Shown here in pieces: positions 6,683 through 59,793 of a stretch of DNA of 64,000 nucleotides; the stretch's first letter is position 1; every line of letters starts with the position of its first letter. The stretch spans positions 86,334-150,333 of the forward strand of contig JAAEAF010014531.1 in assembly GCA_011037195.1 (NCBI GenBank), given 5' to 3'. The notes under the pieces are model-generated. The model was not told the DNA's origin. It saw only the letters and a list, made by a program, of their open reading frames with translations, and made no database searches. The DNA comes from Triatoma infestans (lineage: Eukaryota > Arthropoda > Insecta > Hemiptera > Reduviidae). Position numbers and translations under genes: made by a program.

Positions 6683-7013
6683 AACAGAGATTGTTTCCGT
6701 GATAGCCTGCTTCTTTTTGTGGTCATCGACCGGTTTCAGGCGTTCGCCCATCATCAGGGTTGCGATCCCAATCAGTGTGATGACATAGATTTGCATAGGG
6801 CAAATTTAGTTGATACACTCTGTGTAGTCCAAAATCTACACCTCTGAGGTTAATATGTGGTTTATACAAACTGAATTTGCTCTGTGCAAGTCTATGTTAT
6901 CACACTGTTTGACAAAAAGCATCCTGATGATGGGCGAATGCCACAATAAGAAGCAGGCTATCACGGACAATATCTCTGATGCTTTCCAGCTCTGCGAAAC
7001 CAACCACAAAAAC
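6683..7013 (+). mobile_element. Inverted-repeat element, hammerhead family 1 (12-bp TSD)
   Basis: This 331-bp element is flanked by an exact 12-bp duplication TAATAGTAGGGT at 6671-6682 and 7014-7025. The arms are inverted copies. The left arm reads GTGATAGCCTGCTTC and the right arm carries its complement. The inner parts match the same way (GCACAGAGCAAATT-type sequence and its complement). The left arm carries an almost intact hammerhead-like core on the minus strand (6721-6757). In the right arm that core starts at 6924 but loses GAAACCGGTC. The left end is short (ACAGAGATT). The right end is longer and finishes GCGAAACCAACCACAAAAAC, which sets the sense strand as plus. Confidence 0.85.
6721..6757 (-). 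ncRNA. Hammerhead-ribozyme-like core in family 1 left arm
   Basis: On the minus strand the order is CTGATGA, an extra T, GGGC-GAAC-GCCT as stem II (last pair broken), GAAA, then CCGGTC and GATGACC. GCAAC replaces the usual GCATC before the core. In a hammerhead, A15.1-U16.1 and two C-G pairs would form stem III from ACCGGT, and cleavage would follow GTC. Stem III has no loop, so a complete fold would probably need two molecules. Activity is not shown. The motif is the evidence. Confidence 0.5.
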
Positions 7014-7025
7014 TAATAGTAGGGT

Positions 7026-8397
7026 GTTTTTTTTTTTTTACAAATTTAATTAATTAATTTTAGAGAACTATTGTAAAGTAAAGGAATGTCTATTTTCTTA
7101 TTTTTAGGCAGGCTTTATGTCCACCTATTAATTAGGTGTTGTGGACGGAGGTAGATAGCAAACATACTTCATTTCATACGATTGTTCCTGTTTATCCAAA
7201 TAAAATGCAAGGTCAAGACCGAGAAATCCCAACCTGTACTACAAAACATTTTAGCTTTGCGGCCCGCGCCTCTAACCACTCATCTATCGTGATGTCTCAA
7301 GAAACAATTTATATTCAGAATTATATAAAGTAAAAATTAAGTAATTTTGAACAATTATCATAATACAACATTTTAAGTTAGGCCATACATTTTTCGTAAA
7401 TTTTTTTTTAATGTCCGTTGAAAATCAATTTCGGGCAATGACTGCATCATTCCTTATTGTTTTATTAAGGCAGTTTCCACAAATGTAGTATCATGCTTTG
7501 ATTCCGCTACTTGACGTTTTTTATGAGTTATTTCTGGAACACAAGATAGAATCTTAGCTCATGTTCTATTTCTCTAGGCACTTGTTCGTTATGCCTCGAC
7601 TGTATTCATATTATATTAATTATATTAAATTTAACAAACTGCTGATGATAAATTTATTTATTTACTTTAGTGAAAAGAACAAATAAACATTTATGTTGAT
7701 TTAATTGTTATACATACTTCATAGTTTAAAACACTATTATAAAATAATAAACCATATCAGTAGACACATAGAAAATTTTTTGTGCACATTAATGAAATCA
7801 TAAAGTAGAAGGTTAAAATAGTTCTATACTTAGTGCATGGGTGAAATCTGTCACCCAGTCAACTTTATAAGCGTATATATTTTTTTTTTTTTACTTTCTG
7901 GCATATTGTTTATTAATAAATGCTGGAAAGATACTGAAATGACCAGCATTAAAACAAAATAAAAACTGAGTTGAATATTGAAAAGAAAAGCGCTCTGAAT
8001 GACGGACCGTTGGCGCTCAGATGCGGTCAGTTGGACAGTATATTATATATTATCATGTATGGCGCTGCTATGCCATAGATGCAGAAAACAAAAATCACTC
8101 GCTTTGTTGTGATTTTTCTTGGTCGTATATCACATCTTATTTTCATTCTAAACAAAAATTGAAAACTAGGGATTAAACACTGTCAGAACTAAAATGAGCT
8201 GTTGCAGAACAGGGTAATTGCAATCAATAGCGAAAAAAAAATACAACTATGCGTCAGAACAAAATAATTTCCGCGCTGATTCTTTTCGAGAGAAGAATGA
8301 TAGCTTTGTTTCATGAATTAATTAGTCCAATCCAGTTTTTTTAATCAGTTTTCCATTATTCCTCAAAATTGCCCTAGATGCAGATTGTAGATTGTTG
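7026..8397. other. AT-rich spacer, nothing recognised
   Basis: No supported gene. The short open frames here have no family resemblance. Poly(T) and poly(A) tracts at 7028-7040 and 7879-7891 are the only structure seen. Confidence 0.4.
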
Positions 8398-8621
8398 TAG
8401 GGGATTATTGCATTGCGACCCCCTGAAAGATCTATTGTGCCCCCACCGGAGCCTTCTCCAATGCACAGCCGGCTCTAAGCAGAGGTCTCTAGCTACAGAC
8501 AACACTGCCCATCACCGGACAGTGAGTTGTAGAGGCTTCTAGGAAGAGAAAATCTATGGGCAGCATGCTGGATTCGGACCCGTTGCTAGTCCAGCGCGCT
8601 ACCACTGAGCTAATCCCTTCC
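8398..8621 (-). mobile_element. SINE-A copy 2, complete tRNA-derived SINE
   Basis: On the minus strand it begins GGAAGGGATTAGCTCAGTGG. That contains a polymerase III box A (TAGCTCAGTGGTAGCGC), and the box B GGTCCGAATCC follows about 40 nt later, as in a tRNA gene. The body then has CACTGTCCGGTGATGGGCAG and GAGAAGGCTCCGG. This copy ends in CAATAATCCCCTA. Other copies end in GCGCCTTAAATT plus poly(A). The tRNA-like head and related copies at 3818, 16330, 21295, 23403 and 24775 make the SINE call firm. Confidence 0.85.
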
Positions 8622-9984: not shown

Positions 9985-11510
9985 TTTTTTTTGTTTTTTA
10001 TTTATTTATTTGTTGAATATTTACAATTGCATGATATTATATAAATGTAACAAGTAAATATGATATAAGAAATACTCTGTATCATGCAATGTCATGAATG
10101 GCAATTATCCAGTGAATAACTGCCATTAGAAATCCAGGAGAACGGGAGGTCAACGGCACTTCAACCGTCTTTGGGGATTACCTGGGGGTGAGTTTGAATA
10201 GAGGGCTTGGACAAGGAGATTTGGATGCAGCGATAGGTGACTGTAGAATTTGCATGTATCGGGATTTTGCGAGGTCTTTGACAAACGGGATTTCAGGTCG
10301 TTGTAAATGTGCGATTGGTGATGTAAAAAACGGGCGTCGTCAATGCGAAGGAGGATTTTTCACTGAAAGATTTGAATTCTATTGAGGTTGGAACGCTTAG
10401 CAGTGCCGTACAATTCTTATCCGCATCTCCATTGTAACATGATTTGTATTGGGGGTAAATTAAATTAAATTGAATATGTTAATTAATAATTCATTACTAT
10501 AATTCATATTTGGAATCTTCTCTAAAGGGATCTCATGAGGTCTGTGTTATCTGAATTGAGGAAGTGATAAAAAATGAGCAGAAAATAAACACAAAAAAAG
10601 AAATATAATATACAATTCAAAAATAAATACAGTCTACATAATCAAAATCATCAATCTATCATATCAAAATCTCATTCTTTAACTAATAATAATAATACTA
10701 AGTAACAATTATGATTCTTTGAGAACTTACAATCATAAAAGTGTTTGACTTGAAGGTTGGGCCTTGAATTTCGTATAGCACTTTTAAACACATACATCAA
10801 TCGATTATGGCCACTCTTTCCTGAACCACAAAAATTTCATCTATATATATACATATATATATATATACTTCCTCCCTCCATTGAAGAATAAAAGGAAGGG
10901 AAATTCCCTTTTATTATACCTAAAGGTATTCTACCTTTCTAACTGTTCCTTATTGTTTCACCCAACTTTCGTAAAAACCCAATCTTGATATTGCACAATA
11001 TAGTAACTAATATTCAATGTATTTTAACTAATATATATCACTTAATATGAAATCATGATTTATATTTTTTTTATTGTTTTATTTCTCCCAAAGAGCTACA
11101 CATTACACCATATTAGAGCGAGCAGTGGGATGCAAAATTGTCCTTTGTTCAGAAGTGTTATTTCGGAGCGTTTGTCAAGAAGTCTAGCCGGAAGTATGAA
11201 GCGATGGTTGAGGGTGATTCATTTAAGTCTCGTTTAAGTCTTCCATGTGAAGCGCTTGTCTGAGTATAGACCAAGATAACGAACGTGGTCTGCGGGAGAA
11301 ATAGGAGTATTGAACAGGTAGAAGGGAGGGAGTACTTTTTTGTTTAATGAGAAAACTATGTATTTGGTTTTATTAAGGTTGATTTTTATTCTCCATTTCG
11401 TTAACCAGGATTCAAGTGAGTGAAAATGGATTTGCAAGAAGCGCCTGGAAAGAACGGGTTCGGTATGAGGTGATAGGATTGCTGTAACATCAGCATGAAT
11501 ATGCTAATGT
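9985..11510 (-). pseudogene. Jockey-like LINE 3' part, split by an insertion
   Basis: On the minus strand, 11510-11100 encodes the end of a reverse transcriptase palm and thumb. It has ESWLTKWRIKINLNKTKYIV (11411-11352) and YLGLYSDKRFTWKT, followed by a frame-shifted RLLDKRSEITLLNK. The catalytic YADD box is HADVTAIL near 11481, so the second Asp is lost. The next conserved stretch (GTAKRSNLNRIQIFQ and FVKDLAKSRY, with stops and frameshifts) only resumes at 10435-10140. About 650 bp of AT-rich sequence lies between. The 3' UTR ends in a TAAA-type tail at 9990-10015. This is a dead, 5'-truncated copy. Confidence 0.7.
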
Positions 11511-11576
11511 GAGACGTTAAATTTCAAATGTTATTTAGGTTTGTTCGCTGATACTGGACTGTCCTTTTGGATTTTA

Positions 11577-12440
11577 GTGTAATCACTCCAACTATTATTA
11601 CTATTATTATTATTTGTCTGTGAGGAGGAAAACCCTACGCTATCCAAATCCTCACTGGGCCCATATAGCTACCCCAAGAAAAACAACAAAAACCAGGTCT
11701 AGAACAAAATTCCAGACCCGCATCTAATCCATTTAAGATTCACCGCAGTCCAAATAAATCGGACAATAACTTTAAGCGGAAATAGCCTAATCTCTTCCAC
11801 AGACATCCTATTCCGACCAAAGGTCCTGAAGCTAATTTCCTCACAACATAGGTAATCAGTCATAAGATGGATGGGTGTTTCCTCCTCTGTCTCAAAGAAT
11901 CTACAAAATGGATTCGGCATGAGCCCCATTATGTAGCGATGTCTCCTTAAACCTCAATGTCCAGAAAGAGATCCAACCAATGCCTGAGAGCGCTCCGTGA
12001 TAAACACAGCAACGTCTCACTAATTGCCTTGCCCGGACCCCCGATGAGCATTTGGGACTGCCGTAAACCAACTGAGCTCATCCATAAGGATGAATGTTAT
12101 GAAGCTGTCCACGTCTGAAAGCCTGGCAGACATGTGCCAGAAGACACACCAACAGCAAAGGAAGAGAGGCGCCTAATTTGGCAAACCTATCCACCTCCTC
12201 ATTCCCAAAAATCCCCATGTGACTTGACACCCAGACTAGAAGCACATCCTTCGGAGAAGAAAGCTCTTCCAGTCTTTTAGAACATTCTAACACCATCCTG
12301 GAAGTGAAGACACATGAACTCAGCACCTTCAGCGCAGCCTGGCTGTCCTAGCAGATACAAACAGCTTTACTTCAACTATTACGCTCTTGGGTAGATATAT
12401 GCATCCCCTCTAACTCTGTATTGATGTTAGCACCTTCTAA
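11577..12440 (-). pseudogene. I-type LINE 3' end with RNase H domain
   Basis: The minus-strand translation contains an RNase H domain. DSQAALKVLSS carries the first active-site Asp (around 12350-12320). LLVWVSSHMGIFGNEEVDRF (about 12243-12184) matches the usual VPGHSGIxGNExAD motif. A cysteine-containing tail follows (PFCRFFETEEETPIHLMTD, 11917-11861), as in LINE ORF2 C-termini. Two in-frame stops lie in the RNase H part, and the frame changes between it and the tail. The 3' end is a run of TAA-like triplets at 11593-11612. RNase H plus a TAA tail fits the I clade. A related copy lies at 31370-31697. Confidence 0.75.
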
Positions 12441-14349: not shown

Positions 14350-14700
14350 AGATCTGGTATTTTATCCGTCGTAGCATGCATATTCGTTTTGTCCCTGACC
14401 GGTTTCGGATTTTCATCCATTGCCAAAGCAAATTCACTAAGTTCTTGTACACAGTTCACTTCAACGTAATGTTTCTGTAACTCTCACACTTGTTTGTTTT
14501 CGCTTTGTTGTTTTTCAGAAAACCAAAAAGTGTGAGTGTAACAGAAACATTACGTTGAAGTGAAACTCTCTACACGAACTTCGTGAATTGCTTTGACGAT
14601 GGATGAAGTTCCGAAACCGGTCAGGAACAGTACGAATTTGCATGCTACGACGGATAAAATACCATATGTTATCCAGCAATGGAGACCCATTCACATTTTT
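14350..14700 (+). mobile_element. Inverted-repeat element, hammerhead family 2 (TSD)
   Basis: This 351-bp element is flanked by the 9-bp duplication AAAAACTTA (14341-14349 and 14701-14709). The upstream T-run is partly duplicated too. The arms are inverted: GTATTTTATCCGTCGTAGCA is matched by its complement in the right arm, and the centre (GTGTGAGTGTAACAGAAACA and its complement) is nearly perfectly paired. Each arm has a core of the type GGAT-GAAA-ATCC then GAAACCGGTC. The left end is short. The right end continues to TTATCCAGCAATGGAGACCC, so sense is plus. Confidence 0.85.
14592..14624 (+). ncRNA. Hammerhead-like core, family 2
   Basis: Order on the plus strand: TTTGACGA (the first core base is T where the ribozyme needs C), T, GGAT-GAAG-TTCC (one weak pair), GAAA, CCGGTC and AGGAAC. 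The related minus-strand core at 19175-19208 has the expected CTGACGA, so the ancestor of this family probably had a full core. Confidence 0.4.
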
Positions 14701-17589: not shown

Positions 17590-18865
17590 CATTATTTATT
17601 TATTTATTTATATATACAGGCTGAAGCCTATCACTTACAAAAAATTATAAACATCTAAGCTATCAATAAACTAATAACCTACTTACATACATTTAAACTT
17701 TATACACTAATAACAAAATTATTATTGTCATATATAATAAACCTTTTATGATACAATTTAACATAAAATCACATTTGAAAAATTATAATCTTACTAAACA
17801 GAAACTATCTATAAACTGAAAATGGTTTGAAAAGTAAAATAAATATAAAATAGATATGAAAAATTTTAATATAGAAAAGTTACTAAGAAAGTTAAGAGTC
17901 TCATTTTAAAAATATAAAGTATAATATTTACCCACATATATAAAAGTAAAAAAAAATCATTTTTGAGTGATTATAGTAAAACTCTGAAAAACTAGACAAA
18001 TTTAATTAATATTAATTAATAATAATTTTCAGAGTTGTTTTAGTATTTTTCAGACTGAACTGCAAGTTCATGGAGAAAATATCAATTCTACTGCTCTGCT
18101 GGTTACAGTTATTCATAACTCTATTTATGTTAGAATGTTGTTGATAGTTATATCTTTGGTGACTTATTTCAAAGGGAAGGTACTACGAGTATTATAGGAA
18201 GGGACATGGATATTAATTAGGAATAGGATATCAATACAGTCTATTTCATTGTTTATTATTTTGGAAAGGGAAAGGATATCGAAATGTTGTCTTCTATTAG
18301 AAAGAGTGTTTAAGTTGAGGAAACTGAGCAAATTCTCATAGTTTATATCTTTGTATTGCAGTCCTATTTTGTATGCAACCATTCTGAGAAATTTGTTTTG
18401 AATTTTTTCAATGGAGCCAGAAAGGAGTTTGTAATATGGTGACCAGATCACTGATGCGTATTCTAATTGTGATCTTACTAAGGAGCAGTAAAGATTACGC
18501 ACGGAAGAGATTTTTTTGAAATATTTAGTGTGTCTGCTCAAAAAAACCGAGGGTCTTTAGAGATTTGTGACGTATATTGTCGATATGGTTAGTGAAAGTG
18601 AGTGAAGAGTCAAAATTTACACCGAGATCTTTAAATGCATTAGTAACCTGTAATTTAGTGCCGCAAATTTTGTAATCAGAGTGTATTTTCCTGTTTCCTC
18701 TGTAGTAGTTCATCACAGAACATTTATTCACATTTAGTCTGAAGAAATTTTTCTCACACCATTCGACTAATTTGTTGATATTTTGTTGTAAAATATATGT
18801 ATCACTCTCACTTTTAATAGATTTAAAAATTTTTAGATAACATGTTAATAACATATATTCAAGTT
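17590..18865 (-). pseudogene. Jockey/CR1-like LINE 3' half (reverse transcriptase end)
   Basis: Minus-strand frames 18854-18525 and 18541-18164 are two halves of one reverse transcriptase C-terminus. Visible motifs are LQQNINKLVEWCEKNFFRLN, LNVNKCSVMNYYRG and FKDLGVNFDSSLTFTNHI, then SLVRSQLEYASVIWSPYYK and IEKIQNKFLRM. They are separated by a frameshift at the A/T homopolymer at 18540-18546. The copy is truncated at 18860, just after where the YADD box should be. The 3' UTR ends in a small hairpin (GGCTTCAGCC) and a TAAA tail at 17593-17612, typical of this LINE group. Not functional. Confidence 0.8.
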
Positions 18866-19122
18866 TTCAAGCACTTATTTTTACTGTTTACAAGAGTGGT
18901 GAATTTTATAAAATCGTCATAAAATTTTGGAGAAATATCGTCCACTCTTCTGCGACCACTCTTTCAAGAGCAAATTAGCCCTTCTGAAATACATCTTCCA
19001 AAGTATATAAAAACTGAAATGTTTCCAAAATATCATAGCAAGTTTGAAGAAAACTTATAAAATTTATGGTCCCATATGAAAACTGGCGGCTCTTAATGTT
19101 AATAAATAATCTTTCTAGAATG
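18866..19122. other. Spacer with a possible LINE end hairpin
   Basis: 18893-18966 contains AAGAGTGGT and ACCACTCTT around a 56-bp interval, with TTTGGAGAAATATCGTCCAC. This resembles the 3' end of the Jockey element at 36910-36960 and may be a short plus-strand fragment of it. Confidence 0.3.
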
Positions 19123-19133: not shown

Positions 19134-19565
19134 TATGATTTTATCCATCGTAGGTTGCATCATTTTTGTTTTGGTTCTGACCGGTTTAGGATTTTCATCA
19201 ATCGTCAGAGTAAGGTTTGCAATCAATTATTGTTGAGTTCAAACTCCATCTATATGTTTATATCACAAACGACATTGGTTGATTTCATATGAGGAAGTTC
19301 TCTCTAATAATGTGTTTTATCTCTATAAGAAAGAAATCAAGTAAGAATTCTCACGTTTTTAATCAAAAAGACTGTAGTTATTGTTGATTATACTCGTTAT
19401 AACCTCACTGCATACCAGTGTCGTTTATGATATAAACATATAACTGAATGGAAACCTTACTCTGGCGATGAATGGAAATCCGAAATAGATCAAAACCAAA
19501 ACAAAAATGAAGCATGGATAAAGTCAAGATGTTTACCAGCATTGCAGGGCTACCACATATTAAAG
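19134..19565 (+). mobile_element. Inverted-repeat element, hammerhead family 2 (TSD)
   Basis: This 432-bp element is flanked by AGACCTATGTT (19123-19133) and AGATCTATGTT (19566-19576), an 11-bp duplication with one difference. The arms share ATTTTATCCATCGTAGG-type ends and AAACTCCATCTATATGTTTA-type interiors in inverted order. The left arm has the best family 2 core, on the minus strand. The right arm core is eroded (CTGGCGATGAATGG then GAAATAGATC). The right end continues to CAGCATTGCAGGGCT, so sense is plus. Confidence 0.75.
19175..19208 (-). ncRNA. Hammerhead-like core, family 2 (best copy)
   Basis: Minus-strand order: CTGACGA (all conserved bases present), T, TGAT-GAAA-ATCC (one G-T plus standard pairs in stem II), TAAA in place of GAAA, then CCGGTC and AGAACC. 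The GAAA change would disable this copy. Stem I next to the core pairs only about 2 bp. Confidence 0.45.
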
Positions 19566-24059: not shown

Positions 24060-25020
24060 TTGTGGTTGGGTATGCATTGCTGGAACGCATCAGAGATTTT
24101 TTTTCCGTGTTAGAATGCTTCAATGTGTGGTTATCGAACGGTTTCGGGCATTCGCCCATATAATGGATGTGTTAGGTGGAGAGAATTTAGGTCTGGTTGA
24201 TGATATAAGAAGTAGACTTGGTTGACATGGTTAACTAATATATTAATTAAGTGATACAGACTGCCTGGACTTTACAATAGAGAAATGTTTTAAGGTAGAG
24301 TGGTATGAAAATGACACGTAGTAATTGGATGTATTGAACTGAATTGAACTGTGTTTTTATGGATTGTCCGTCGCTATATTTATACAGTTTCTTCCACTCC
24401 AGTCCGAGAAAGTGGTTTTGGGTTTTGTTTCTCTCCTCTTTGCTGAGCTTCTCTTTGATTGCTGTTACAGCCCATTACCGGGAAGTATTGATAAAATCTG
24501 ATTTCCATTTTTTTTTTTTAAAGTATTCTGTTATGTCCTAAGGGGAAGGGTTCGTTCTTTATACCTTCCTTTTTTCATTTGTAAAGGTCATTGTTTTTTA
24601 ATTCTTTAAAAATGGAAACATCAATGATTAGATATATGATATTTAATTTATCTTAAGGAGCAAATTTAGATCGTTTCCTAACTCAGTCAGATCATGACCG
24701 AACTCTTTCCAAAAGAGTGTGTAAATAGAGTTTGCTGTTTGCAAGTTTGTGTTATTACAGGTTTGTTTATTAAGTTTTTTAAGGCGTCAACCCTTAGATT
24801 TTTTTCTTCCAAGGAGCCGCTTCAGCTCACTGTCCGTTGATGGAGGCCGGCAGTGCACTGAGAAGGCTCCGGGCGCCAATGACCATAGTTGTTGAAGGGC
24901 CTTAAATTAAAAAAAGAAAAAAAGGAATAAAGGCTGATGGGAAAGTGTCAGAAACTGGTCGATGACCACAAATTGAAGCAGACTAACACGGAAAACAATC
25001 TTTCAGACTTACTAGAGCTT
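24060..25020 (-). mobile_element. Degenerate inverted-repeat element, hammerhead family 1, with nested SINE
   Basis: The left arm at 24060-24175 has GTTGTGGTTGGGTATGCATT, GCATCAGAGATTTTTTTTCC and GGTTATCGAACGGTTTCGGG. The right arm pieces are at 24717-24765 (TTGCAAGTTTGTGTTATTAC-like) and 24920-25010 (GAAACTGGTCGATGACCACA, then GCAGACTAACACGG). SINE-A copy 6 sits inside the right arm. The long GGTTGGTTCCGC-type end is on the left, so sense is minus. The boundaries are approximate and no target duplication was found. Confidence 0.55.
24775..24919 (+). mobile_element. SINE-A copy 6, internally deleted
   Basis: Has TCACTGTCCGTTGATGGAGG (middle deleted), GGCCGGCAGTGCACTGAGAA, GCGCCAATGACCATAG and CCTTAAATTAAAAAAAG. 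It begins with TTTTTTAAGGCGTCAAC, which is the tail sequence in inverted orientation. Either two partial copies are fused or there was a foldback event. Confidence 0.7.
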
Positions 25021-25136: not shown

Positions 25137-25796
25137 CATCTGGTATTTTATCCGTCATAGCATACATATTCGTTTTGTTCCTGACCGGTTTCGGATTTTT
25201 CATCTAACGTCCGAGCAAATTCACGGAGTTCATGTAGAGAGATCACTTCAACGCAATATTTCTGTTACACTCGACACTTGTTGGTTTGCTGATTGTATAT
25301 ACTTATAACCTCGTATGTGGGCGGGAGGTTATAAGGTTATGTTACTATGTGTGTTTAATGACAAAATGGAATTATTTATAAATTTTGATTAGAAAATAGT
25401 GCATAATAAATAGCGTTTAATTGATAATTTATATTTAATATATTTATTTTTTTATAAATTTATTTATTAATATAATTTACATTTAATATATCACTTATTA
25501 TTTAATAATAATAAGCATGCATCATAATTTATAATAATTCCTGTTTGTCATTAAACACACACACACACACATAGTAACATAACCTTATAATCTCCCGCAC
25601 ATATATACAATCAACAAACTAACAAGTGGGGGTGTAACAGAAAAATTGCATTGAAGTGAGCTCTCTACATGATCTTGGTGAATTTGCTTTGACGATGGAT
25701 GAAAATCCGAAACAGGTCAGGAACAAAATGAATATGCATGCTAAGACGGATAAATACCAAATATTATCCAGCATTGCGGACCCACTCACATATTCC
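25137..25796 (+). mobile_element. Inverted-repeat element, hammerhead family 2, long form (12-bp TSD)
   Basis: This 660-bp element lies between TCATTATGTTAA (25125-25136) and TCATTATGCTAA (25797-25808). The arms pair over most of their length. TATTTTATCCGTCATAGCAT, GTATATACTTATAACCTC and GTTACTATGTGTGTTTAATG each have a complement on the other side. An AT-rich centre of about 180 bp does not match the shorter family members. The core on the left (minus) is CCGAAACCGGTC with stem II eroded. On the right it is TTTGACGATGGATGAAAATCC then GAAACAGGTC. The CA tract at 25556-25570 lies in the right arm. Confidence 0.8.
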
Positions 25797-27349: not shown

Positions 27350-27750
27350 CTACATCTTAGACCCTCTTCTGCAAACTTTTTCAAGGCATCGTATGCACTG
27401 AGATTTACTAGCAACCAGGCTAGTGTCTCATTATCAATACGAATATAATAGCTTAATAGCACTCCACAACTTTGTCCGGTGATCCTCATATTGCGCCGTA
27501 GCAATATCGTAATCAATGAAGATCTCCTGAGGTGCGATTGTTGCTAGTTGAAAACTTTTCTTTCGAATATTTTGCCATAATCAGACGCAATAAAATCAGC
27601 GTGAATGATGAAACTCACCTTTTTTCTACAGTCGCTAAATCGGTTTAATTTTTAGCAGCTTTGGAATAAGGTTCATTGCGGTTACCATTTGTATTATCCC
27701 ACTTGAAACCTTTGCGGTTTTAGAAATCTACACTCAAGATGCCGCATACA
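27350..27750 (-). pseudogene. Possible decayed coding fragment, family unknown
   Basis: On the minus strand a continuous stretch reads QLATIAPQEIFIDYDIATAQ, then YEDHRTKLWSAIKLLYSY. Flanking stretches in other frames look coding-like (NETLAWLLVNLSAYDALKKF downstream, FKWDNTNGNRNEPYSKAAKN upstream). GC content is above the local level. I do not recognise the protein. It may be a processed pseudogene or an old transposase piece, or chance. Confidence 0.3.
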
Positions 27751-31697: not shown

Positions 31698-32584
31698 CCC
31701 CTACATTATCATTGAACACACATTACTTTGATGATGAATCTGTTCAAATGTTGGTAGTAAGTTTATGAACGTTAAAAATTCATAAACTAGTTTGAACATA
31801 GTTTTGTTGGGAAGCATTCTTATGTTCTCCTCTTTCACTTTCAAACATGTGTTTGCCTATAAATCTGTCAAATCATTAACTAAGCTTACTTAATGTCAAT
31901 ATTTTGTTAAAACAAAAAAAAAAATCATTTGTTCAAAATGATAAAAACAAATTCAGAATATTAAGTTCAATGTTTCAAATTTTTGGATTGACAAGAAATT
32001 GTAATTTTGCAGCGCTACCTTTGTTCCTTTCCATGAAAGCGGTAAAACACATTTCTACTAAACTTGTAAAGTATTTGTTTGATTTATAATTGAATAATAG
32101 CTGAAGTTGGTGTTGAATGAATTTTGATGAGATTTAATCATTATAATTTGGAATACTTCATTTAATATTGTATTGACGTTATGGAAAAATATTTTTTAAT
32201 TATTAGTTAAATTATGAACATTATTTTTAAATAGCTAAGAAGAATATTTTCTTCTTCAATAAAAACGCATTATCAATACGATCTGATTCCAAAATGCTGC
32301 AATTTTGAGTAAATATTTACAAACTTAGATTGTTTAATATTTCAAAATAAAAATAAAGAGAATTTCCCAAAAAAATTTTCGATTAGATATCATTAAATGT
32401 GGGTCATTTTTGAAATAAGAATCCCAAAAAAATATGAAAAAAAGTACTTGCAGTGTTTCTGGTAGGTGGAAAGCAGGAAACTTTTTCCATTTATTCCTTC
32501 CGAAACTTGGTTTGATTGTTTCATTCTCTAAATTAAGAGTTTCAGTGATTCATTCGGGCCAGTTCATATTTAATTCGTTTTGTT
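31698..32584. other. AT-rich spacer, nothing recognised
   Basis: No supported feature. Confidence 0.4.
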
Positions 32585-33645
32585 TGTTGGATCCACAGAG
32601 CTAAAGCATTAGTGATATTTTCCATGATAACGTTCTTAATTTTGTGGTCATCGACTAATTTCGGGCGTTCGACCATCATCAGTCATCAACAGTTATGATG
32701 TCAATCGACCCTTTACCACAAGAAATGAATGCTTTGTATAATTTTCCCATAAGATTAAAATATCTTTCTAATTAAATATAAGATATGGAATATCTATAAA
32801 TATTGTTTAATGGTGATATCGTGTCTTCTATGATATTATATACGTATATATCTTGCCACAAATATATAAGGCATTCTAAATCATAATGATTATTATTAAT
32901 TATTGTCTATTACCGTCTATATGTAACTGTACATTGTGTTAATTTGTAAATAAAGTCTTTTTTGTAACTTAGTAAATTTCAGTTCTTTAATTAACGAAAG
33001 GATGTCTTGATAAACAGTGCATAGAGCAAAATCAATTTACACAATGTTTTGTTATGATTTAACTGGGTTAGGAAGGCAAACTTTATACCTGACTAAGATC
33101 ACATGTCGTTTTCGTTTTTAAAAGGGATTGCATTTTTGGTAAGTGTAAATGTGCAACTTAAATTACATTTTCGGGTAAATTTACATCTTTTGCATTCATA
33201 AATCATTATTTATACTATCTTATTGTATTCTTGATTATGAAAGATCAATTGTTTACGTATATAAATCATTCATAAATAAATATTAGCACTAAAATCAAGA
33301 ATAACTAAGATAGTATAAATAATTATTTATGCGATGTAATTTAATCTAAAACGTAATTTAAGTTTTGTATTTTTATTTATTGATGTTTCCATTTTTAAAG
33401 AACCAATGCCTTTAAAATTGAAAACAACATATAGCCTTTGGCAGTATAAAGAACCCCTTTCTAACTCGTTTAAGTCAAAACAAAACTCTTTCCTTATACC
33501 TTGTATAAACTGATTTTGCTCTGTGCAAATCTGTGTTGTCACACTGTTATCAAGACATCCTGATGATGGGCGAACACCCGAAACCAGTTGATGACCACAA
33601 AAAAAAAAAAAAAGCAGGCTATCACGGGAAGAATTTCTGATACTA
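32585..33645 (-). mobile_element. Long inverted-repeat element, hammerhead family 1, interrupted
   Basis: The left arm is in two pieces. 32585-32690 has TTGTTGGATCCACAGAGCTA, TTGTGGTCATCGACTAATTT and GACCATCATCAG. 33002-33050 has GGATGTCTTGATAAACAGTG and GCATAGAGCAAAATCAATTT. About 300 bp of unrelated AT-rich DNA lies between them. The right arm is at 33505-33640 with an intact core. About 430 bp of interior lies between the arms. Part of it (GATTTAACTGGG) matches the interior of the element at 59367. The long end is on the left, so sense is minus. Confidence 0.6.
33560..33596 (+). ncRNA. Hammerhead-like core, family 1
   Basis: CTGATGA, T, GGGC-GAAC-ACCC (one mismatch in stem II), GAAA, CCAGTT and GATGACC. 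ACATC precedes the core and can pair with GATG as stem I. The GTC cleavage triplet of other copies is GTT here. Confidence 0.45.
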
Positions 33646-38273: not shown

Positions 38274-39914
38274 CAGTGCGTTTCATAACTATAAAACCAC
38301 TCGAAATTTTTAATTTAAAATAGTTCCTTGAATTGTAGAATTAATTGCACGCAAAGCAATTTAAAAAAAAAGGTAAAATAAATAAAGAAAAAATATCCAT
38401 TCTAATTGAACTTTTGCTTTTTAAAATGTTTTTCATTAATAAACTTGATTTTGTGAGTGTGTCATAACTATAAAACCAATTGAGTAAACAATATCTGCTT
38501 GGAATCTTGTCATTTAAAAACAAACTCTAATCCTCTTATTGCGATAAATAGACACTGAACATTAGTCTCTTTGTTTTCCATGCAAGATAGTAAGACATTG
38601 AACATTAGTCTCTTTGTTTTCCATGCAAGATGCCGCGAGGTAAACTACTCACAGACGAAGAAAAAGGTAAAATTTTGGCTTTTGCCGAAGAAGAATTATG
38701 TCTTCGGGAAATCGCCAGGAGACTGCAAAGGTCCCATAATGTGATGCGAACCTTTTGGCAAACCAACAGAATTATGGAAAAAATAAAAAAGGTGGGCCTA
38801 AAAGGAAACTTTCACTTCGTTGTGAACGACGAATTATTAATTATTCAAGCAATTCAGTCAAAAGCATTAGCAAAATGATTTCTGACCTTAATGTGAACGT
38901 TTCGCGCTCTACCGTGTACCATGTTCTTAAACGAAGTAAATTTATTAAATGTCAAAAAATGTGAAAAGCGCCAAAACTTCAACCTCGCCATATTGCAGCA
39001 AGATTGGAATTCGGGCGACACAACATTTCCACTGATTGGCATTCCGTGATTTTTTCAGATGAAAAAAAATTTAATTTAGATGGTCCAGATGGCAACAGGC
39101 ATTATTGGAGAGATCTTAGAAAAAAACCCTGTTAAATTTTTAAGCGAAATTTTGGCGGTGGGAGTGTAATGGTGTGGGGAGCTTTTTGTTCAACGAAAAT
39201 GCTAAAGTTAGCATTTCCCTCCACCAAAATGAACAGTGCAGAATACACCACTGTTCTTGAAAACCACTTGTTGCCTTTCCTTCACCAAAATAATCACGTG
39301 CAATGGACATTCCAGCAAGACAACGCTGCTATTCACACTAGCCGAGCAACCAAAACATGGCTCACATCTGATATGCAAACATGGCCTCTCCTTCAATGGC
39401 CTGCTTGTTCTCCTGATCTTAATCCCATTGAAAATGTATGGGGTATCATTGTAAGAAAGGTTTACCCCGAAAACCACCAATACGGGAATGTGGAAGATTT
39501 AAAAAATGCCATAATCAAATCATGGAACGAAATATCCGACCAAGTCAGAAAAAATTTAATTTCAAGTATGGGAAGAAGGCTTTTCCAGGTTGCTGGGAAG
39601 AGGGGAGGAACCACTGACTATTAAAAATGTACAGATGTTACAACCAGTAGTTTTTTGATAATGAAATTTTTTATTTTTATTTTGGTTCTATAGTTATGGG
39701 ACATGTGAATTTTTTATTTTTTTTACATTTTATTTAAAAAACAACTGTAAAAATAATAAACTGTAATATGTTAATGACACAATTACTTTTTCTTTTCAAA
39801 TACCTGTTGAAACGTTCTGTGTACAGGTTGTAGGTACACGTTGGAAACTATAGAAAATTTTAAGCGAAAAATTGAAAAAAAAAAAAAATGGTTTTATAGT
39901 TATGAAACGCACAT
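38274..39914 (+). mobile_element. Tc1-like transposon with double terminal repeats (DD36E type)
   Basis: The 1641-bp element sits between TA dinucleotides (38272-38273 and 39915-39916), the Tc1/mariner target. Its outer terminal repeats (38274-38299 and 39889-39914) share 24 identical bases, beginning GTGCGTTTCATAACTATAAA. Only the first two bases differ (CA left, AT right). A second, diverged copy of the repeat lies inside each end (38457-38477 and 39681-39705), an IR/DR arrangement. Between them is one transposase pseudogene. A 43-bp tandem duplication (GAACATTAGTCTCTTTG at 38557 and 38600) lies just before the start codon. Confidence 0.9.
38630..39624 (+). pseudogene. Tc1-like transposase, D-36-E, inactivated
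   Basis: The start at 38630 opens a helix-turn-helix region (KILAFAEEELCLREIARRLQ). A one-base frameshift near 38755 moves to the second frame. There a GRPR-like basic motif (GGPKRKLS) and a second DNA-binding half (SRSTVYHVLKRSKF) follow. In this frame are a TGA at 38962-38964 and a TAA at 39133-39135. Catalytic residues are the Asp in [13 protein letters not shown], the Asp in WTFQQDNAAIHTS and the Glu in SPDLNPIENVWG. 36 residues separate the last two, where classical Tc1 has 34. D-36-E is the spacing described for the Incomer group. The total is about 330 codons, normal for Tc1. It would have bound the terminal repeats and cut and pasted the element. Confidence 0.88.
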
Positions 39915-41588: not shown

Positions 41589-41832
41589 TTATTGTTGTGG
41601 TGGTTGGTTCCGCATAGCTGGAAAGCATTAGAGACATTTTCCGTGGTAGCCTGCTTCATTTTGTGGTCATCGACCGGTTTCTTTCAAAACTTGTTAAGAG
41701 TGTGTAAACTGAATTTGCTCTGTGCAAGTCTGTGTTATCACACTGTCTGACAAACACATGCTGAAGATGGGCGAACGCCCGAAACCGGTCGATGACCACA
41801 AAATGAGGCAGGCTATCACGGAAAATGTCTCT
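41589..41832 (-). mobile_element. Inverted-repeat element, hammerhead family 1 (11-bp TSD)
   Basis: This 244-bp element lies between exact AAATGTGATAG copies (41578-41588 and 41833-41843). The left arm begins TTATTGTTGTGGTGGTTGG, the long end, so sense is minus. The left arm core is cut short after CATCGACCGGTTTC. The right arm core at 41761-41797 is intact on the plus strand. The target lies in a CCGGAAGT repeat, so this insertion is younger than that copy. Confidence 0.85.
41761..41797 (+). ncRNA. Hammerhead-like core, family 1, intact consensus
   Basis: CTGAAGA, T, GGGC-GAAC-GCCC (four perfect stem II pairs), GAAA, CCGGTC and GATGACC. All invariant hammerhead core bases are present (CUGANGA and GAAA, with GUC as the cleavage triplet). 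The extra T after CTGAAGA is not in the standard fold. The stem I partner (ACATG) pairs poorly with GATG here, while in the family consensus GCATC pairs 4 bp. Confidence 0.55.
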
Positions 41833-42599: not shown

Positions 42600-43109
42600 T
42601 TACGACAAATATACGGATAACAAGCTGAAAAAAATCTGGTGTGAAACACTCATACCACTTACTCTTATTATAATTAATACAATTTAATCAAGAAATTTTC
42701 TGTAAAATTGCAACGTTACAATGTTTAGATGGGCTGACTACATAAAAATGGTGGTGGGGATAGCATACCTGAACAGGCTTATGTGGAGCGCTCCTCAATC
42801 AATGTCTATTCAAATTTCAATTTAAACTAACTCAAATCATATTTTATAGCAAAATGTTACAAATAAAAGTGATACGTTTTATCTATCTACCAACCATTCC
42901 AAGTTTTGAGAAAATTGTAACCGTTTAACGAGAAAATTCCAAAAAAACTCAAAAAACTACCCTGTAAAATCTCATGTCCGTTAAGCGATAAAAATTCGTA
43001 AAAAATATTACACTGAAGTGGTAGTTTAGAGGCAAGTTAACGCTACTGTTCCCCCCCGAATCTTTCTCAAAAAAAAAATCCCGGTAAAATGTATCAAATA
43101 AAAATTCAA

Positions 43110-43344
43110 GGTATTTATCACACAAAGCTAGTGTTTCAAGGTATCACACAAAGATAGTGTTTCAAGGTATCACACAAAGATAGTGTTTCAAGGTATCACA
43201 CAAAAATAGTGTTTCAAGGTATCACACAAAAATAGTGTTTCAAGGTATCACACAGAGATAGTGTTTCAAGGTATCACACAAAGATAGTGTTTCAAGGTAT
43301 CACACAAAGATATGGTTTCAAGGTATCACACAAAAATAGTGTTA
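43110..43344. repeat. 26-bp minisatellite, 9 units, inside the CCGGAAGT repeat
   Basis: Units GTATCACACAAAGATAGTGT plus TTCAAG start at 43111, 43141, 43167, 43193, 43219, 43245, 43271, 43297 and 43323. The first has a 4-bp insertion (GTATTTATCACAC) that matches the repeat consensus before expansion. Confidence 0.9.
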
Positions 43345-43456
43345 CGAATAATGAAAAGCGACAGATAACTTCTTGTCGGATTGTATGGTGATATTCAAAA
43401 TGAATGTTTATTATGAACTTTCTATGATTTTCATTTTTGAGCTATGCTGTTCGTTC

Positions 43457-44824: not shown

Positions 44825-45107
44825 GATACATCTTCCGTGATAGCCGGTTTCGGGCGTTCGCACCCAGCTCTTCAGGATGCGTTTGTCAAGCAGTGTGAAA
44901 ACACAGACTTGCACAGAGCAAATTCAGTTTACACAAAGTCAGTCAAAATTCAGTTTATACTGGTGTAAACTGAATTTGCTCTGTGCAAGTCTGTGTTTTC
45001 ACACTGTTTGACAAACGTCCGAAAACCGGTCGATGACCTCAAAAAGAGCAGGCTATCACGGGAAAATGTCTCTGATGCTTTCCAGCTCTGCGGAACCAAC
45101 CACAACA
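44825..45107 (+). mobile_element. Inverted-repeat element, hammerhead family 1 (13-bp TSD)
   Basis: This 283-bp element lies between GTTATCGTTATTA (44812-44824) and GTTATCGTCATTA (45108-45120). The arms are inverted around 44960, with GCACAGAGCAAATTCAG on the left and its complement on the right. Both cores are damaged. The left lacks the segment with CATCGA. The right lacks CTGATGA and half of stem II, leaving CCGAAAACCGGTCGATGACC. The long end GGAACCAACCACAACA is on the right. Confidence 0.85.
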
Positions 45108-48133: not shown

Positions 48134-48665
48134 TCAGAGACATTTTCCGCGGTAACCTGCTTCATTTTGTGGTCATCGACCAGTTTCGGGCGTTCGCCCA
48201 TCTTCAGGATGCGTTTGTCAGACAGCGTGATAACATAGACTTGCATAGAGCAAATTCAGTTTATACACTGACTGGTCTTTTTAATTTTATTTAAAACTAA
48301 ACTCTTAAACTAGGTCAAAGGGAGGTGTGGTCATGGTAGTTGGGTGGGAAAGGAACACGTGTTTGGGTTGTTAAAGGGGCAAATTTTCCTTAAAATGGAA
48401 ACAACACGTGGGGTCTAATTTTTAAACTCTGTATTGGAGGGAAATTCACTTGACAATTAAATAATCAGAATAACTTTAAAATTAAATTAAATAACGATTT
48501 CAAGCTAACATAATTTAAAATGAAGCGATTAAAATAATAAAAATTTGATATATATAAGCATAAAACAATTACACTAATCATACCAAATAAACCACAAAAT
48601 GAAGCAGGCTACCACGGAAAATGTCTCTGATGCTTTCCAGCACTGCCGAACCAACCACCACAACA
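48134..48665 (+). mobile_element. Inverted-repeat element, hammerhead family 1, with different interior (12-bp TSD)
   Basis: This 532-bp element lies between exact AATATCATTAAA copies (48122-48133 and 48666-48677). The left arm is full, with core 48171-48207 on the minus strand. The right arm keeps only ACCACAAAATGAAGCAGGCT and the outer end GAACCAACCACCACAACA. About 300 bp of sequence not seen in other family members replaces the rest (48280-48590). Confidence 0.85.
48171..48207 (-). ncRNA. Hammerhead-like core, family 1
   Basis: Minus strand: GCATC, CTGAAGA, T, GGGC-GAAC-GCCC (perfect stem II), GAAA, CTGGTC and GATGACC. CATC before the core and GATG after the GTC cleavage triplet give a 4-bp stem I. 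Only one stem III base differs from the consensus ACCGGT. Confidence 0.55.
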
Positions 48666-50689: not shown

Positions 50690-51870
50690 TTTTTGGGAGA
50701 AGAAAATGTGGTGGAAAACACTCACACGACCTTCTCTCACTGCCACTAATTAAATTGACAAATTTTCTTTAAACTCGGACAATTTCACTGAGTTACCACC
50801 CTAAACATAAATATAGAGGTGGTGGGGGGATATATCTGGTTGGCACAGATGGTAGGAGGAAATCGAATACGTTTACATTGTTATGCAGAAGACAGGGCCA
50901 AAATATTGCACAAACTCAAATTTATCATTCAAATGTAACTTCTTATATTTCGCTGAAAAACTTTTAAGAGATTGTTACGGAAAATGTTTCAAATACTTCA
51001 ATATTTCTACAATACTACAATATTTCAAACTGATCAAGTTTTTAAACCTACGGTTAGCATTCCCAGTTAGTTCCCGGTTAGCATTTCCAGTTAGTTCCCG
51101 GTTAGCATTCCCAGTTAGTTCCCGGTTAGCATTCCCAGTTAGTTCCCGGTTAGCATTTCCAGTTAGCTCCCGGTTAGCATTCCCAGTTAGCTCCCAGTTA
51201 TCATTTCCAGATAGCATTCCCAGTTATCATTTCCAGTTAGCTCCCGGTTATCATTTCCAGTTCGCTCCCGGTTATCATTTCCAGTTTAAAGAAAATCATT
51301 ACAGTCGTTTTCTAGAAAATTCCAATAAGCTAGAAACATCTATTCTGTAAAGTCCATTCTTCCGGTAACCCGATTTCTTTCAAATTTGAAATTCTATCAA
51401 TTCTTGGTATGTTTATTTGATAAATTTGGTAATACATGGTAATCAGCATAGATTCCATTGAATTGATACTTCAGAAGAAAATATAACGCAACTGAACCCT
51501 CAAACCCCCAAAAAAGTTTGCTGGGAAAAATGTTTCAAAAAAGGGACAGTAAAAGAAAGTAAGGAAAAACTGAGAAAATACCACGATTCAGTAAAGGCAC
51601 ACTTCCGGTTCCTGGATTTTATCCGAAAACTTCGTGTCACATGGCAGTGATGATACCTTAACGGAAAACCAAGTTTGAGCTTCCTGTTTATTTTTAGTTT
51701 TTTTAAAATATTTTGGTGACATACACACTCACACATACAGACCATTCGCTAAAAACATTTTTTTCGTACTCATGGGACTTAAAAACACGTACTTATTTCC
51801 GGTGAAAACTGCGTTTCCAAATTTGAAACGTTCGCTACACTTCATCTTACTCGAAGAGAGAGTAAAAAAA
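50690..51870 (+). repeat. CCGGAAGT repeat, sense, with 24-bp minisatellite
   Basis: Left end at 50708 (GTGGAAAACACTCACACGAC). The minisatellite at 51051-51287 lies inside. AAAGAAAATCATTACAGTCG and CATTCTTCCGGTAACCCG follow. A second sense copy begins near 51500 with CACACTTCCGGTTCCTGG, AGACCATTCGCTAAAAACAT and CTACACTTCATCTTACTCG. Confidence 0.8.
51051..51287. repeat. 24-bp minisatellite, about 10 units
   Basis: The unit CGGTTAGCATTCCCAGTTAG plus TTCC starts at 51051, 51075, 51099, 51123, 51147 and 51171, then diverged units follow to 51287. Because 24 is divisible by 3, both strands stay open and encode 8-residue repeats. This explains the open frames at 50883-51350 and 50975-51217. Confidence 0.9.
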
Positions 51871-55113: not shown

Positions 55114-55403
55114 TGTTGTGGTTGGTTCCGCAGAGCTGGAAAGCAGCAGAGACATTTTCCGTGATACCTGCTTCTTCTTGTGGTCATCGACCGGTTTCGG
55201 GCGCTCGTCCATAATCACGATGTTTTTGTCAAACAGTGTAATAACACAGACTTTCCCAGGAACAAATACAGTTAATACACTCGTGTACTTGCTCTGTGCA
55301 AATATATGTTATTACAAAAACAACCTGATGATGGGCGAACCCCTGAAACCGGTCGATGACCACAAAAAGAAGCAGGCTACCAAGGAAAATGTCTCTGATG
55401 ATT
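55114..55403 (-). mobile_element. Inverted-repeat element, hammerhead family 1 (9-bp TSD)
   Basis: This 290-bp element lies between GTTAGACAT (55105-55113) and GTTAGATAT (55404-55412). The long end (TTGTGGTTGGTTCCGCAGAG) is on the left, so sense is minus. The left-arm core is altered. The right-arm core at 55325-55361 keeps CTGATGA and GAAACCGGTC. Confidence 0.85.
55325..55361 (+). ncRNA. Hammerhead-like core, family 1
   Basis: CTGATGA, T, GGGC-GAAC-CCCT (stem II weakened to two or three pairs), GAAA, CCGGTC and GATGACC. Core bases are all present, but stem II is mutated and the upstream partner is ACAAC rather than GCATC. Confidence 0.4.
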
Positions 55404-56960: not shown

Positions 56961-56990
56961 TATTTAGTTGGTAAATAGTTATTTATTTCA

Positions 56991-57195: not shown

Positions 57196-57497
57196 CAGAG
57201 ACATTTTCCGTGGTAGCCTGCTTCGTTTTGTGGTCATCGACCGGTTTCGGAGCGTTCGCCCATTTTTCAGGATGCGTTTTTCAGGACGTGTGCCAACACA
57301 GACTCGTACATAGACATTAGCTTCACATAACTGAAGATAAGTCTCTGTACGAAGTCGTCTGTGTTGGCACATGTCTGAAAAAACCGTCCTGAAGATGGGC
57401 GAACGCCCGAAACGGTCCGATGACCACAAAACGAACTAGGGCTACCACGGAAAATCTCTGATGCTTTCCAGCTCTGCGGAACCAACCACCACAACAA
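57196..57497 (+). mobile_element. Inverted-repeat element, hammerhead family 1 (13-bp TSD)
   Basis: This 302-bp element lies between exact ACTGTGAATGTAT copies (57183-57195 and 57498-57510). It has the short end CAGAGACATTTTCCGTGG on the left and the long end CGGAACCAACCACCACAACA on the right, so sense is plus. Arms are paired through GTGTTGGCACATGTC-type sequence. The left core (minus, about 57234-57270) keeps GAAACCGGTC with an insertion before stem II. The right core (57389-57426) has CTGAAGA, GGGC-GAAC-GCCC and GAAA, then CGGTCC. Confidence 0.88.
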
Positions 57498-57510
57498 ACT
57501 GTGAATGTAT

Positions 57511-59366
57511 TTTAATTCGTCAAATACTATCTCTCTCAATAACCTGGGCCGTTTGGTATAACCTCAAATCCGCTACATCTGGCAGTTGTTTTGATCTTAT
57601 TTTCGCATACTGCCGCCAGATCTCGTTACCAGAAGCTCACTTTCACACACTAGTGAGGAAAGTAGTGTGTAACTCACTTGTGTGTGAAGGTTGAACTTTC
57701 TTTAGTAAATTTAGTTTAATAATCGTCAGATTATTTAACAATTGTAGAAAATATTATTTTTCTACAAACATGTAACAATGAGACAATTATTAAATCAAAA
57801 GTAGTGAGTGAAGTTATGCTTGTAATCAGAAGTGAAAGAAAAAGTAAACTTAGCCATTAGTTTGAAGAATGCAAATGCCATGTTGGAGTGAAATTTTGGA
57901 GGGAAGAGAGAGCAGATCGTCTGGAACATAGAAGAGTATTTGCATGAATCAATTTATGAACTATGATGGGGCAGGATCAAAAATCGAGATCGAGGATTCC
58001 CTATGTAAAAGGACTTAATAAGGTAAGGCGATAAGAAAAGCAATGGCAAAAAAAAAAGCACAAGCTGATGTGCTAAGTTTACCAGCGTGGATACCTATAA
58101 AAGCTGTATACCTCAACTAAATCTGGTTTACCGTAATGTTCAGTTAGTCGGGCTGGGTTTACTTGACTGAAAACTCGCAAAGCACTAAAGAAGGGCTTGC
58201 TTACTTTTTCCCTTCCAGGTGGATTACTCGGCAGGAGATATTGCTAAAAGATGGAACAAGCTAGCAGTATAGAGGCCATTTTTTGTTCATATCTTTCTAA
58301 ATAACAGTCTCCATTAAAAGCATATATTTAGTCATAAATGCGTATGACTAAGAAAGAGAAGAAGAAGATGTTGCATTATTTATAATCTGTGACTGCGTGC
58401 CGCTCCTTGGTATTAGGACCACACCTTGACCGAGATCTAATTGATATATCCATTAACCACATTAAATCAATCATCCATGAGTTTGTCTCTGATATAAAAA
58501 AAAATTCTTTCAACTCTAATGTGTCATTAACAAAATAAAAGACCTCCATACACATGTTTTAACCTGAAAATGGTAATGAAATACTGGATAGGAAAGTTTA
58601 ATGAAAGAAAAGATCGAGAATGTGGAAGACGACAAAAAAAAATAAAAAGAAGTGATCAACAAGATAGGCAATTCCAAGAACAGGAGAAGTTTGTAAACTT
58701 GTCAACAACGCATAAATTATGCATTTTCTTCTAGTAATATAACATTAATAATTATTTCCTACAATAAGAAACACGCGACCAAACCCCTAGATCGATAATT
58801 AATCAACTACTATGGACAACTCGATCGATTATAAATGAAGTGAATAATTTTGACAACTTAGCAGACAATGAAGAATTGTGGTTTTATGTACATAAAACTA
58901 TTATGGTGAAGCAAAGTGAAATGGTTTTCTTTAAATAGAATAAATGGAATTCCCCGAACATTTTTTTCCTCTACGGAACAGGAGAACCAGATTTTCCTTC
59001 TAAAAAGAAAAAAGTAAAGACTTTGTTTGGCGGGAAGGGGAATCGGTTTCAATTTTTAATTAAAATGCTAATTTTTAAAGAAAATTTTGGTAATTATCCG
59101 ATCCTCAGTTATTGGTAAACCCAATAATACTTCCAGAAGCTGTAGTGGAATACTGAACAATTGGTTGGATAAAAGGGAGTGTTTAAAAAGAAAACAAAAT
59201 TGATATAAATTTATTTGATTTAATATGACACTATACTAGGGTAGGTAGGCAGAATTACGTTTTTAAGTAAATAGCAGGATCGAAGTTAAACTGAAGTTAC
59301 TTAATATCAGGTGCGAATGACCTTAGATGTTTTGCACCTTAAATAAAAAAAAAAATTATATTCATT
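57511..59366. other. AT-rich spacer
   Basis: No supported gene. 57770-57870 (TTATTAAATCAAAAGTAGTG, AGTGAAGTTATGCTTG) is related to 62965-63050, so it is another low-copy repeat. Confidence 0.4.
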
Positions 59367-59793
59367 GTCAGAGATTTTTTCGGTGATAGCCTGCTTCATT
59401 TTGTAGTCATCAACTGCGGTGATCACCCATCATCAGGATATATTCATCAGGATTCAGGATAAACTGTGCGATAACACAGGACTTGCAGAGAGCAAAATCA
59501 ATTAAACCAACTGTTTTGACCCACAAGTGTCTTTTTAAGATCTAACTGGGTATTATGGAAGTGTATTTTCCACAGAAAAAAAAACAGTTTAATAAGACTC
59601 AGTTAGGTCATAACAAAAACACTTCTCAAAACAGTGAGGGTCAACTGATTTTGCACAGTGCAGGTCCTGTGTTATCAAGACATCCTGATGGTGGGCGAAC
59701 ATCTCGAAATCGGTGGATGATCTCAAAATGAAGTCCCAGTCTACCACAGAAAAAATCTCTTATGTTTCCAACTCTGAGGATCTAACCGACAAC
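59367..59793 (+). mobile_element. Inverted-repeat element, hammerhead family 1, longer interior
   Basis: This 427-bp element lies between AATTATATTCATT (59354-59366) and AATTACATAAATT (59794-59806), 10 of 13 matching, so the duplication is weak. The short end GTCAGAGATTTTTTCGG is on the left. The long end GGATCTAACCGACAACA is on the right. The interior CTAACTGGGTATTATGG / ACTCAGTTAGGTCATAAC also pairs. Both cores are badly eroded (CTGATGGTGGGCGAACA, GAAATCGGTGGATGA). Confidence 0.7.

Follow-up and report, generated by a model that had tools for sequence, protein, structure and literature searches.

Abundant one-tailed, head-to-head pairs of putative Penelope-like pseudo-LTRs in the genome of Triatoma infestans

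How does a genome come to hold, in many copies, a short element that consists of two inverted arms and no gene? The question is raised by a stretch of Triatoma infestans DNA (the window, 64,000 nt of contig C13539 of the 941-Mb assembly) in which a preliminary description had noticed twelve two-armed inverted elements, and had read them as non-autonomous retroposons that process their RNA with a hammerhead ribozyme and are possibly moved by a Penelope-like enzyme. The observation itself holds. Arm-derived profiles find all 12 copies again, always with the minus-strand arm ahead of the plus-strand one. The copies make up family A (nine) and family B (three, at 14350, 19134 and 25137); beyond these the profiles match just two weak family A spots near 54.2 kb, at 5–9 bits. 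The interpretation fared less evenly: the retroposon nature and the Penelope connection gain support, whereas hammerhead processing and the supposed oddity of the palindrome do not. What had been missed is a tail on one side of each element, the start of an open reading frame (ORF) in the arms and the common source of both arms. We propose that the elements are ORF-less, head-to-head pairs of the pseudo-long terminal repeats (pLTRs) of Penelope-like elements (PLEs), and consider it probable that each was built at its own insertion by two-ended priming with an enzyme supplied in trans.

Three parts make up each arm: sequence from upstream, a type I hammerhead of the minimal kind, and ~23 or ~35 codons from the start of an open frame. 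The two arms of a copy are 57–96% identical over their aligned part, gaps counted. The B profile matches A arms and the A profile matches B arms, so the two families are related. A comparable anatomy is known from PLEs. PLEs are described as having inverted pLTRs in head-to-head order, 9–10 bp target duplications and a 31-bp tail optionally present on one inverted pLTR (PMC3846280), and inverted pLTRs with short 3' extensions are also named for them elsewhere (PMC8969392). Their hammerhead lies at the ORF start and cuts 26 nt past the start codon, and reverse transcription starts in an AC-rich stem loop 111–118 nt into the ORF (PMC11167929). A palindromic layout, which had been called unusual for either MITEs or SINEs, is a described PLE trait (PMC3846280).

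The same genome also holds a decayed PLE with stops in every frame (L016, bases 1–10000 of contig C10500). The pLTR of L016 can be aligned with the two arms of each of three B pairs, B1, B3 and one upstream, at 74–84%; its alignment with a further B arm, in L011, is at 87%. Its reverse transcriptase (RT) piece matches a Drt3a reverse transcriptase in both NCBIfam and PDB and contains a putative YVDD box; a further piece matches TIGR01453, presumably of GIY-YIG type. Because the published anatomy matches and the L016 pLTR matches the B arms, we read the arms as PLE pLTRs, directly so for family B, and we infer the same for family A. This bears out the earlier suggestion of hammerhead-bearing, non-autonomous retroposons moved by a Penelope-like enzyme, and the search for a PLE sharing the arm sequences, proposed at the same time, found one for family B. 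The A arm consensus encodes MGERPKPVDDHKMKQATTENVSDAFQLCGTNHHN and the B consensus MDENPKPVRNKTNMHATTDKIPDIIQHCGPTH, in register over 32 codons, and a codon test of A against B is weak (p about 0.047). Genome-wide, at least 38 places exceed the GIY-YIG cut-off among 150 scored of 1,157 candidates, some of which may not belong to PLEs.

Several points weigh against this identification. The link to RT and endonuclease (EN) concerns family B, comes from one decayed copy and consists of matches below the curated cut-offs. Pfam returned no match for three L016 pieces at E≤1, a protein search with the L016 RT piece returned nothing at E≤0.001, and the RT and EN pieces match nothing else in 244 kb comprising the window, bases 1–80,000 of its contig and 10 kb from the start of each of ten further contigs. 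The closest known systems are the canonical PLEs with RT and GIY-YIG domains (Penelope/Poseidon; Adineta vaga Pen2a, PMC3846280; Anolis PAc, PMC11167929). Common to both are head-to-head pLTRs, a one-sided tail of 30–40 bp, short target duplications, a hammerhead overlapping the ORF start and an AC-rich distal start site; unlike canonical PLEs, all 12 window copies are without an ORF between their arms.

The outer ends of the elements are fixed and of two kinds. One arm stops at a fixed short site (in family A, ...ATGTCTCTGA), and the other continues for ~36 nt into a conserved tail with an AC-rich end. In the frame positions of the arm consensus, the predicted hammerhead cut falls after nt 24, the short end at nt 68 and the tail end at nt 104. 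The tail match reaches p≤0.002 on one side in 12 of 12 window copies, with the opposite side no better than p=0.36. Because the profile was trained on window arms, these 12 copies are not independent of it, whereas the nine copies outside the window are. Across the 244 kb, each of 21 automatically formed pairs has exactly one tail (10 left, 11 right; scores of 14–36 on the tailed side and 5–8 opposite), and no two-tailed or tailless pair was seen among them. For A2 this pairing took an inner piece, and the true outer end was tested with the window copies. The pairing looked for head-to-head order and left 13 arm hits unpaired and uncounted, at contig edges, as inner pieces or with no partner found. 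In published PLEs the tail on one inverted pLTR is optional; here one arm, and never both, carries it in all 21 pairs.

Target duplications accompany many of these ends. With fixed boundary rules, 8 of the 12 window copies have duplications beyond those at random window sites (p≤0.026); the copies at 55114 and 59367 give p=0.058 and p=0.155, and none was found at 24060 or 32585. The four exact duplications of 11–13 bp reported in the preliminary description are present, and its count of ten duplicated copies was generous. By automatic boundaries, 13 of the 21 pairs reach p<0.05, and two more are missed: A4, with its exact 11 bp, and a pair at 35730 of the upstream stretch, where the 12-bp TAACTTATAATT is seen by eye. 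Duplication lengths in the 21 pairs vary from 8 to ~14 bp, and AT content is 76% in eight chosen duplications versus 66% in the window. Inverted arms between target duplications would also be expected of a DNA transposon, either a foldback element or a miniature inverted-repeat transposable element (MITE) with long terminal inverted repeats. Such an origin is very improbable: the one-sided tail makes the termini asymmetric, the arms start a frame, L016 links them to RT and EN, and the duplications lack the fixed length that had been named beforehand as the mark of such a transposon.

Kinship between arms bears on when the palindrome forms. Because old copies inflate raw arm distances, these were set aside as a test, and shared derived states were used instead. 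In the nine A copies, own-arm pairs share 37 derived states versus ~12 by chance pairing (a mean of 4.11 per own pair and 1.01 for other left-right pairs), and a total of 37 is attained by 2 of 362,880 pairings, one of which is the true pairing. The signal persists with substitutions only and without A8, A9 or both (worst case 2/5,040), and in 17 A pairs the count is 50 versus 23.4 expected, a value reached by 0 of 200,000 pairings. In family B one of six pairings, the least possible, reaches the observed value, and B2 holds 26 of the 28 shared states. When the tailed and untailed labels are swapped, 853 of 5,000 trials give a value as extreme as the observed one, so that the two kinds of arm do not form lineages of their own. 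Since own arms share derived states and tailed and untailed arms form no lineages, either the palindrome was made anew at each insertion or its arms were converted. That conversion within a palindrome would likewise make the arms alike counts against de novo assembly, as does the ranking of partners: the own partner is strictly best in 1 of 17 pairs, tied in 5 and beaten in 11, and by raw distance it is the nearest for 7 of 24 arms.

The hammerhead deserves a separate look, as it had been given a central role. Its core positions are read according to the general hammerhead plan. Consensus A reads CATC-CTGATGA-TGGGCGAACGCCC-GAAACCGGTC-GATG, with stem I (CATC/GATG), the CUGANGA core, stem II and GAAA, and with ACCGGU in place of helix III; consensus B reads ...CT-CTGACGA-TGGATGAAAATCC-GAAACCGGTC-AG. 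An ATG runs into the beginning of stem II in both families and accounts for the extra U that follows the core. The strict core CTGANGAN{8,14}GAAAC has six window matches versus 0.13 expected; all six fall within arms, and the strict core is therefore kept in 6 of 24 arms, the other 18 being mutated, deleted or B-type in this region. A looser pattern (CTGANGA, 6–18 nt, GAAA) has 14 window matches, eight in arms and six elsewhere. The sequence motifs reported for intact arms (CTGANGA, stem II, GAAA and CCGGTC) are present, with the strict core in a quarter of the arms.

Stems I and II are kept, with compensating differences between families A and B. In 18 of the 24 arms (six without much of the core were excluded), 76.4% of stem cells pair, versus 27–43% when slid and 69.3% when shuffled, and 27 cells are changed on both sides versus 12.4 in shuffles. 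Against covariation, neither the pair-type count nor the number of pairs with a double change exceeds shuffles, the double changes are mainly a single contrast between A and B, and RNAalifold predicts stem II alone. The Rfam scan suggested earlier gave no hammerhead match for the window as a whole, whether the threshold was the gathering score or E≤10, and none for three short stretches searched alone. PLE hammerheads are described as minimal, without helix III and possibly cleaving as dimers (PMC6155905, PMC7761336). Those of Cervera and de la Pena 2014 and Lunse et al. 2017 (as cited in PMC7761336) are likewise type I with a palindromic ACCGGU for helix III; here, in contrast, there is one copy per strand per element, so that a cis dimer is unavailable within an element. 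A ribozyme in each arm amounts to one hammerhead per RNA strand, because the arms are reverse complements.

Unlike the outer ends, the inner ends scatter, lying more than 10 model positions apart in 13 of 17 A pairs. None of the 34 listed inner ends of A arms is at the predicted cut, past which the first base is model position 139; 33 are upstream, and one, that of the tailed arm of A6, is at position 143. Because the inner ends are mostly upstream of the cut, the template was probably uncut in most insertions, which agrees with the report that hammerhead mutants left in vitro insertion unaffected (PMC11167929). Four 46-nt monomers were folded, and in each the minimum-energy form is something other than a hammerhead, although the stem II-like hairpin is kept in all four; in five cofolds of two 46-mers the double hammerhead is, by our reading, not the minimum-energy form. 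The idea that a hammerhead processes the inserted RNA consequently finds no support in either the ends or the monomer folds. Some observations pull the other way. Besides the A6 end, three unpaired hits begin at positions 144, 144 and 147, that is, 5–8 positions past the cut (L011:1-43, L015:687-725 and L002:9633-9690, one of them at a contig edge), and these four starts may be traces of occasional insertion of cut RNA. Inner ends are, moreover, the ends of profile hits, which divergence, deletions and overlap can shift (as with the inner piece of A2 and the overlapping hits of A4).

These results also bear on whether the palindrome propagates as a unit, through its own hammerhead-processed transcript and with arms homogenised by conversion. 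High copy number, the ORF-less form and the derived states shared by own arms would all suit such a unit. Yet tailed and untailed arms would then be expected as lineages, which they do not form, and the centres differ among copies (by eye). The ends do not fall at the cut, and the A5 transcript, the sole element compared with shuffles, is a long hairpin (-147 kcal/mol, z -16.4); sense-RNA minimum energies of the 12 elements range from -111 to -320 kcal/mol. We regard unit propagation as improbable.

The elements are not peculiar to the window. A 44-nt arm pattern with ≤3 mismatches occurs at 26,425 places in the genome (arms, not pairs; control 0), and the inward count in the genome pattern search is 14,765. 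In two overlapping lists of 100 places each, every neighbour closer than 500 bp is in head-to-head order (11/11 and 16/16); at 1.4–2 kb there are same-strand neighbours, one in the first list and two in the second, and the second list adds one placed tail to tail. A 105-nt arm query found no match in the genome by a search that skips very common words, and viral contigs contained no match to a 19-nt arm pattern. What is new is this abundant ORF-less pLTR-pair form, together with the derived changes common to the arms of one copy, the lack of tailed and untailed lineages, and the absence of the 34 listed inner ends from the predicted cut. Among the titles and abstracts listed in our literature searches, none dealt with head-to-head pLTR pairs devoid of an ORF or with a tail held strictly to one arm, and we do not claim priority.

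A non-coding sequence with a type I core and so many copies might also be an animal retrozyme, in which type I hammerheads are repeated in tandem and small circular RNA is the means of movement; metazoan non-LTR retrozymes (PMC7229834) are likewise non-autonomous, with a type I hammerhead and many copies. The elements described here differ in being inverted rather than tandem and in carrying a PLE ORF start in the arm. There are no direct neighbours less than 500 bp apart in either list and few on the same strand at ~1.5–1.7 kb, the minimal core has no helix III loop, and an Rfam hammerhead match is absent in the window. We give a retrozyme origin almost no credence.

We propose instead that a PLE enzyme, acting in trans, would make a staggered cut of ~8–14 nt, and that both target 3' ends would prime reverse transcription inside pLTR RNA, one from the proximal start site, ~68 nt inside the ORF, and the second from the AC-rich distal site at ~104 nt. 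Both cDNAs would extend upstream through the uncut hammerhead, a predicted ribozyme that would be inherited from the PLE, and would stop at variable points; the joining of the two cDNAs would then create the palindrome anew at each insertion. Two-ended target-primed reverse transcription, with one start per site, fits the fixed outer ends, the scattered inner ends and the kinship of the arms. The anole PLE enzyme is described as cutting and extending both target strands and as having two adjacent RT start sites, the interval between which equals the tail (PMC11167929).

The alternative that comes nearest is a fold-back, in which a single PLE template or cDNA self-primes and copies back into a palindrome. 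Inverted pLTRs whose junctions are palindromic have been suggested to arise in this way (PMC3846280), with self-priming on an antisense template (Arkhipova 2013), and fold-back accounts for the head-to-head order, including that of all listed close neighbours, and for the similarity of the arms. A copied arm should, however, end like its source, and the outer ends differ in all 21 pairs. In A4 and A6, furthermore, the tailed arm is without the upstream sequence of the untailed arm, so neither arm contains the other, unless that sequence was deleted. Fold-back therefore seems unlikely to us, if less so than propagation as a unit.

Two-ended priming has a difficulty of its own. The account of the anole enzyme reports no strand difference in start site (PMC11167929), which weighs against a fixed division of sites between strands; with such an enzyme, the one-each rule would need coupling. 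We tentatively suggest, at a little under an even chance, that PLE insertion is coupled in this way: an enzyme dimer would make the staggered break, both ends would start reverse transcription in one event with the proximal/distal division enforced, one subunit using the proximal and the other the distal site, and the ORF-less pairs would be a natural short product and the main output here.

Table 1. Coordinates of the paired elements, example hammerheads and the decayed PLE L016 (window positions unless L016 is named)
Feature	Position	Strand	Details
A1, family A pair	6683..7013	+	tail right; target duplication TAATAGTAGGGT on both sides
B1, family B pair	14350..14693	+	tail right; right arm MDEVPKPVRNSTNLHATTDKIPYVIQ; both arms match the L016 putative PLE pLTR
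B2, family B pair	19134..19556	+	tail right; imperfect duplication, p=0.026; 26 derived states common to arms
A2, family A pair	24062..25016	-	tail left; another repeat inside; duplication not found
B3, family B pair	25137..25788	+	tail right; arms ~300 bp; match the L016 pLTR
A3, family A pair	32583..33643	-	tail left; long; duplication not found
A4, family A pair	41589..41832	-	tail left; exact 11-bp duplication AAATGTGATAG; tailed arm begins within hammerhead
A5, family A pair	44825..45107	+	tail right; 13-bp duplication, one mismatch
A6, family A pair	48134..48665	+	tail right; exact 12-bp duplication; tailed arm begins ~4 nt 3' of predicted cut
A7, family A pair	55114..55400	-	tail left; imperfect duplication, p=0.058
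A8, family A pair	57196..57497	+	tail right; exact 13-bp duplication; 13 derived states common to arms
A9, family A pair	59367..59793 (end as in the preliminary description)	+	tail right; duplication not above chance, p=0.155; 8 shared derived states
Tail of A8	57462..57497	+	36 nt; AC-rich outer end; last A may be part of the duplication
Example hammerhead, untailed arm of A4	41754..41799	+	CTGAAGA, stem II, GAAA, CCGGTC; ATG overlaps stem II start
Example hammerhead, untailed arm of A6	48169..48214	-	
Example family B hammerhead	25682..25727	+	
L016 B tails, head to head	~5044-5116		frame continues past tail (DKIPDVIQHYGSIHIFNNTACQAK...); piece also matches B1 arm
Family A pair within L016 RT region	L016:6064-6373		duplication not above chance
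L016 RT pieces	6402-7309		NCBIfam NF041747 reverse transcriptase, E 6.9e-9, below curated cut-off
L016 GIY-YIG-like piece	within 7401-7652		GIYKLPCPECNCTYIGQIGRRLKDRYKEH; TIGR01453, E 3.9e-4, below cut-off
L016 B pLTR	to ~8698		hammerhead and ORF start

Other features share the window. A dispersed repeat (D17, I8) lies at 8480, 16417 and 21374, and a related stretch near 24842 seems to interrupt A2; further dispersed families are D15 (five copies, 12581-56866), D10 (eight, 9791-60508) and D12 (five, 15481-56629). Rfam microRNA-like matches below gathering score at 44893-45004 and 14455-14564 coincide with palindrome centres and are possible false microRNA annotations. A U4 spliceosomal RNA match at 27487-27569 (+), at 55.5 bits, covers 83 nt of a 138-position model and is perhaps a pseudogene. 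Minisatellites occupy 43064-43375 (26-bp units) and 51027-51316 (24-bp units), and Tc3/mariner-like transposase fragments lie at 38609-39624 (HTH_Tnp_Tc3_1, DDE_3). A gag-like ORF of a long interspersed element (LINE) with PRE_C2HC is found at 35371-36205, and listed with it are weak RT and RNase H matches on the minus strand at 11234-12347 and 18525-18866; for the LINE-related entry a search of the protein collection gave a single relative, with 49% identity.

These elements hint at how PLEs enter DNA, and they bear on the frequent inversion of PLE repeats. Two-ended priming, self-priming and unit propagation become countable predictions, and the pairs offer a natural short substrate for in vitro work. 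Elements of this kind can also be missed or misclassified by searches with Rfam models and by annotation in the style used for MITEs. In Triatoma infestans, the 26,425 near-exact arm matches record the insertion reaction many times over.

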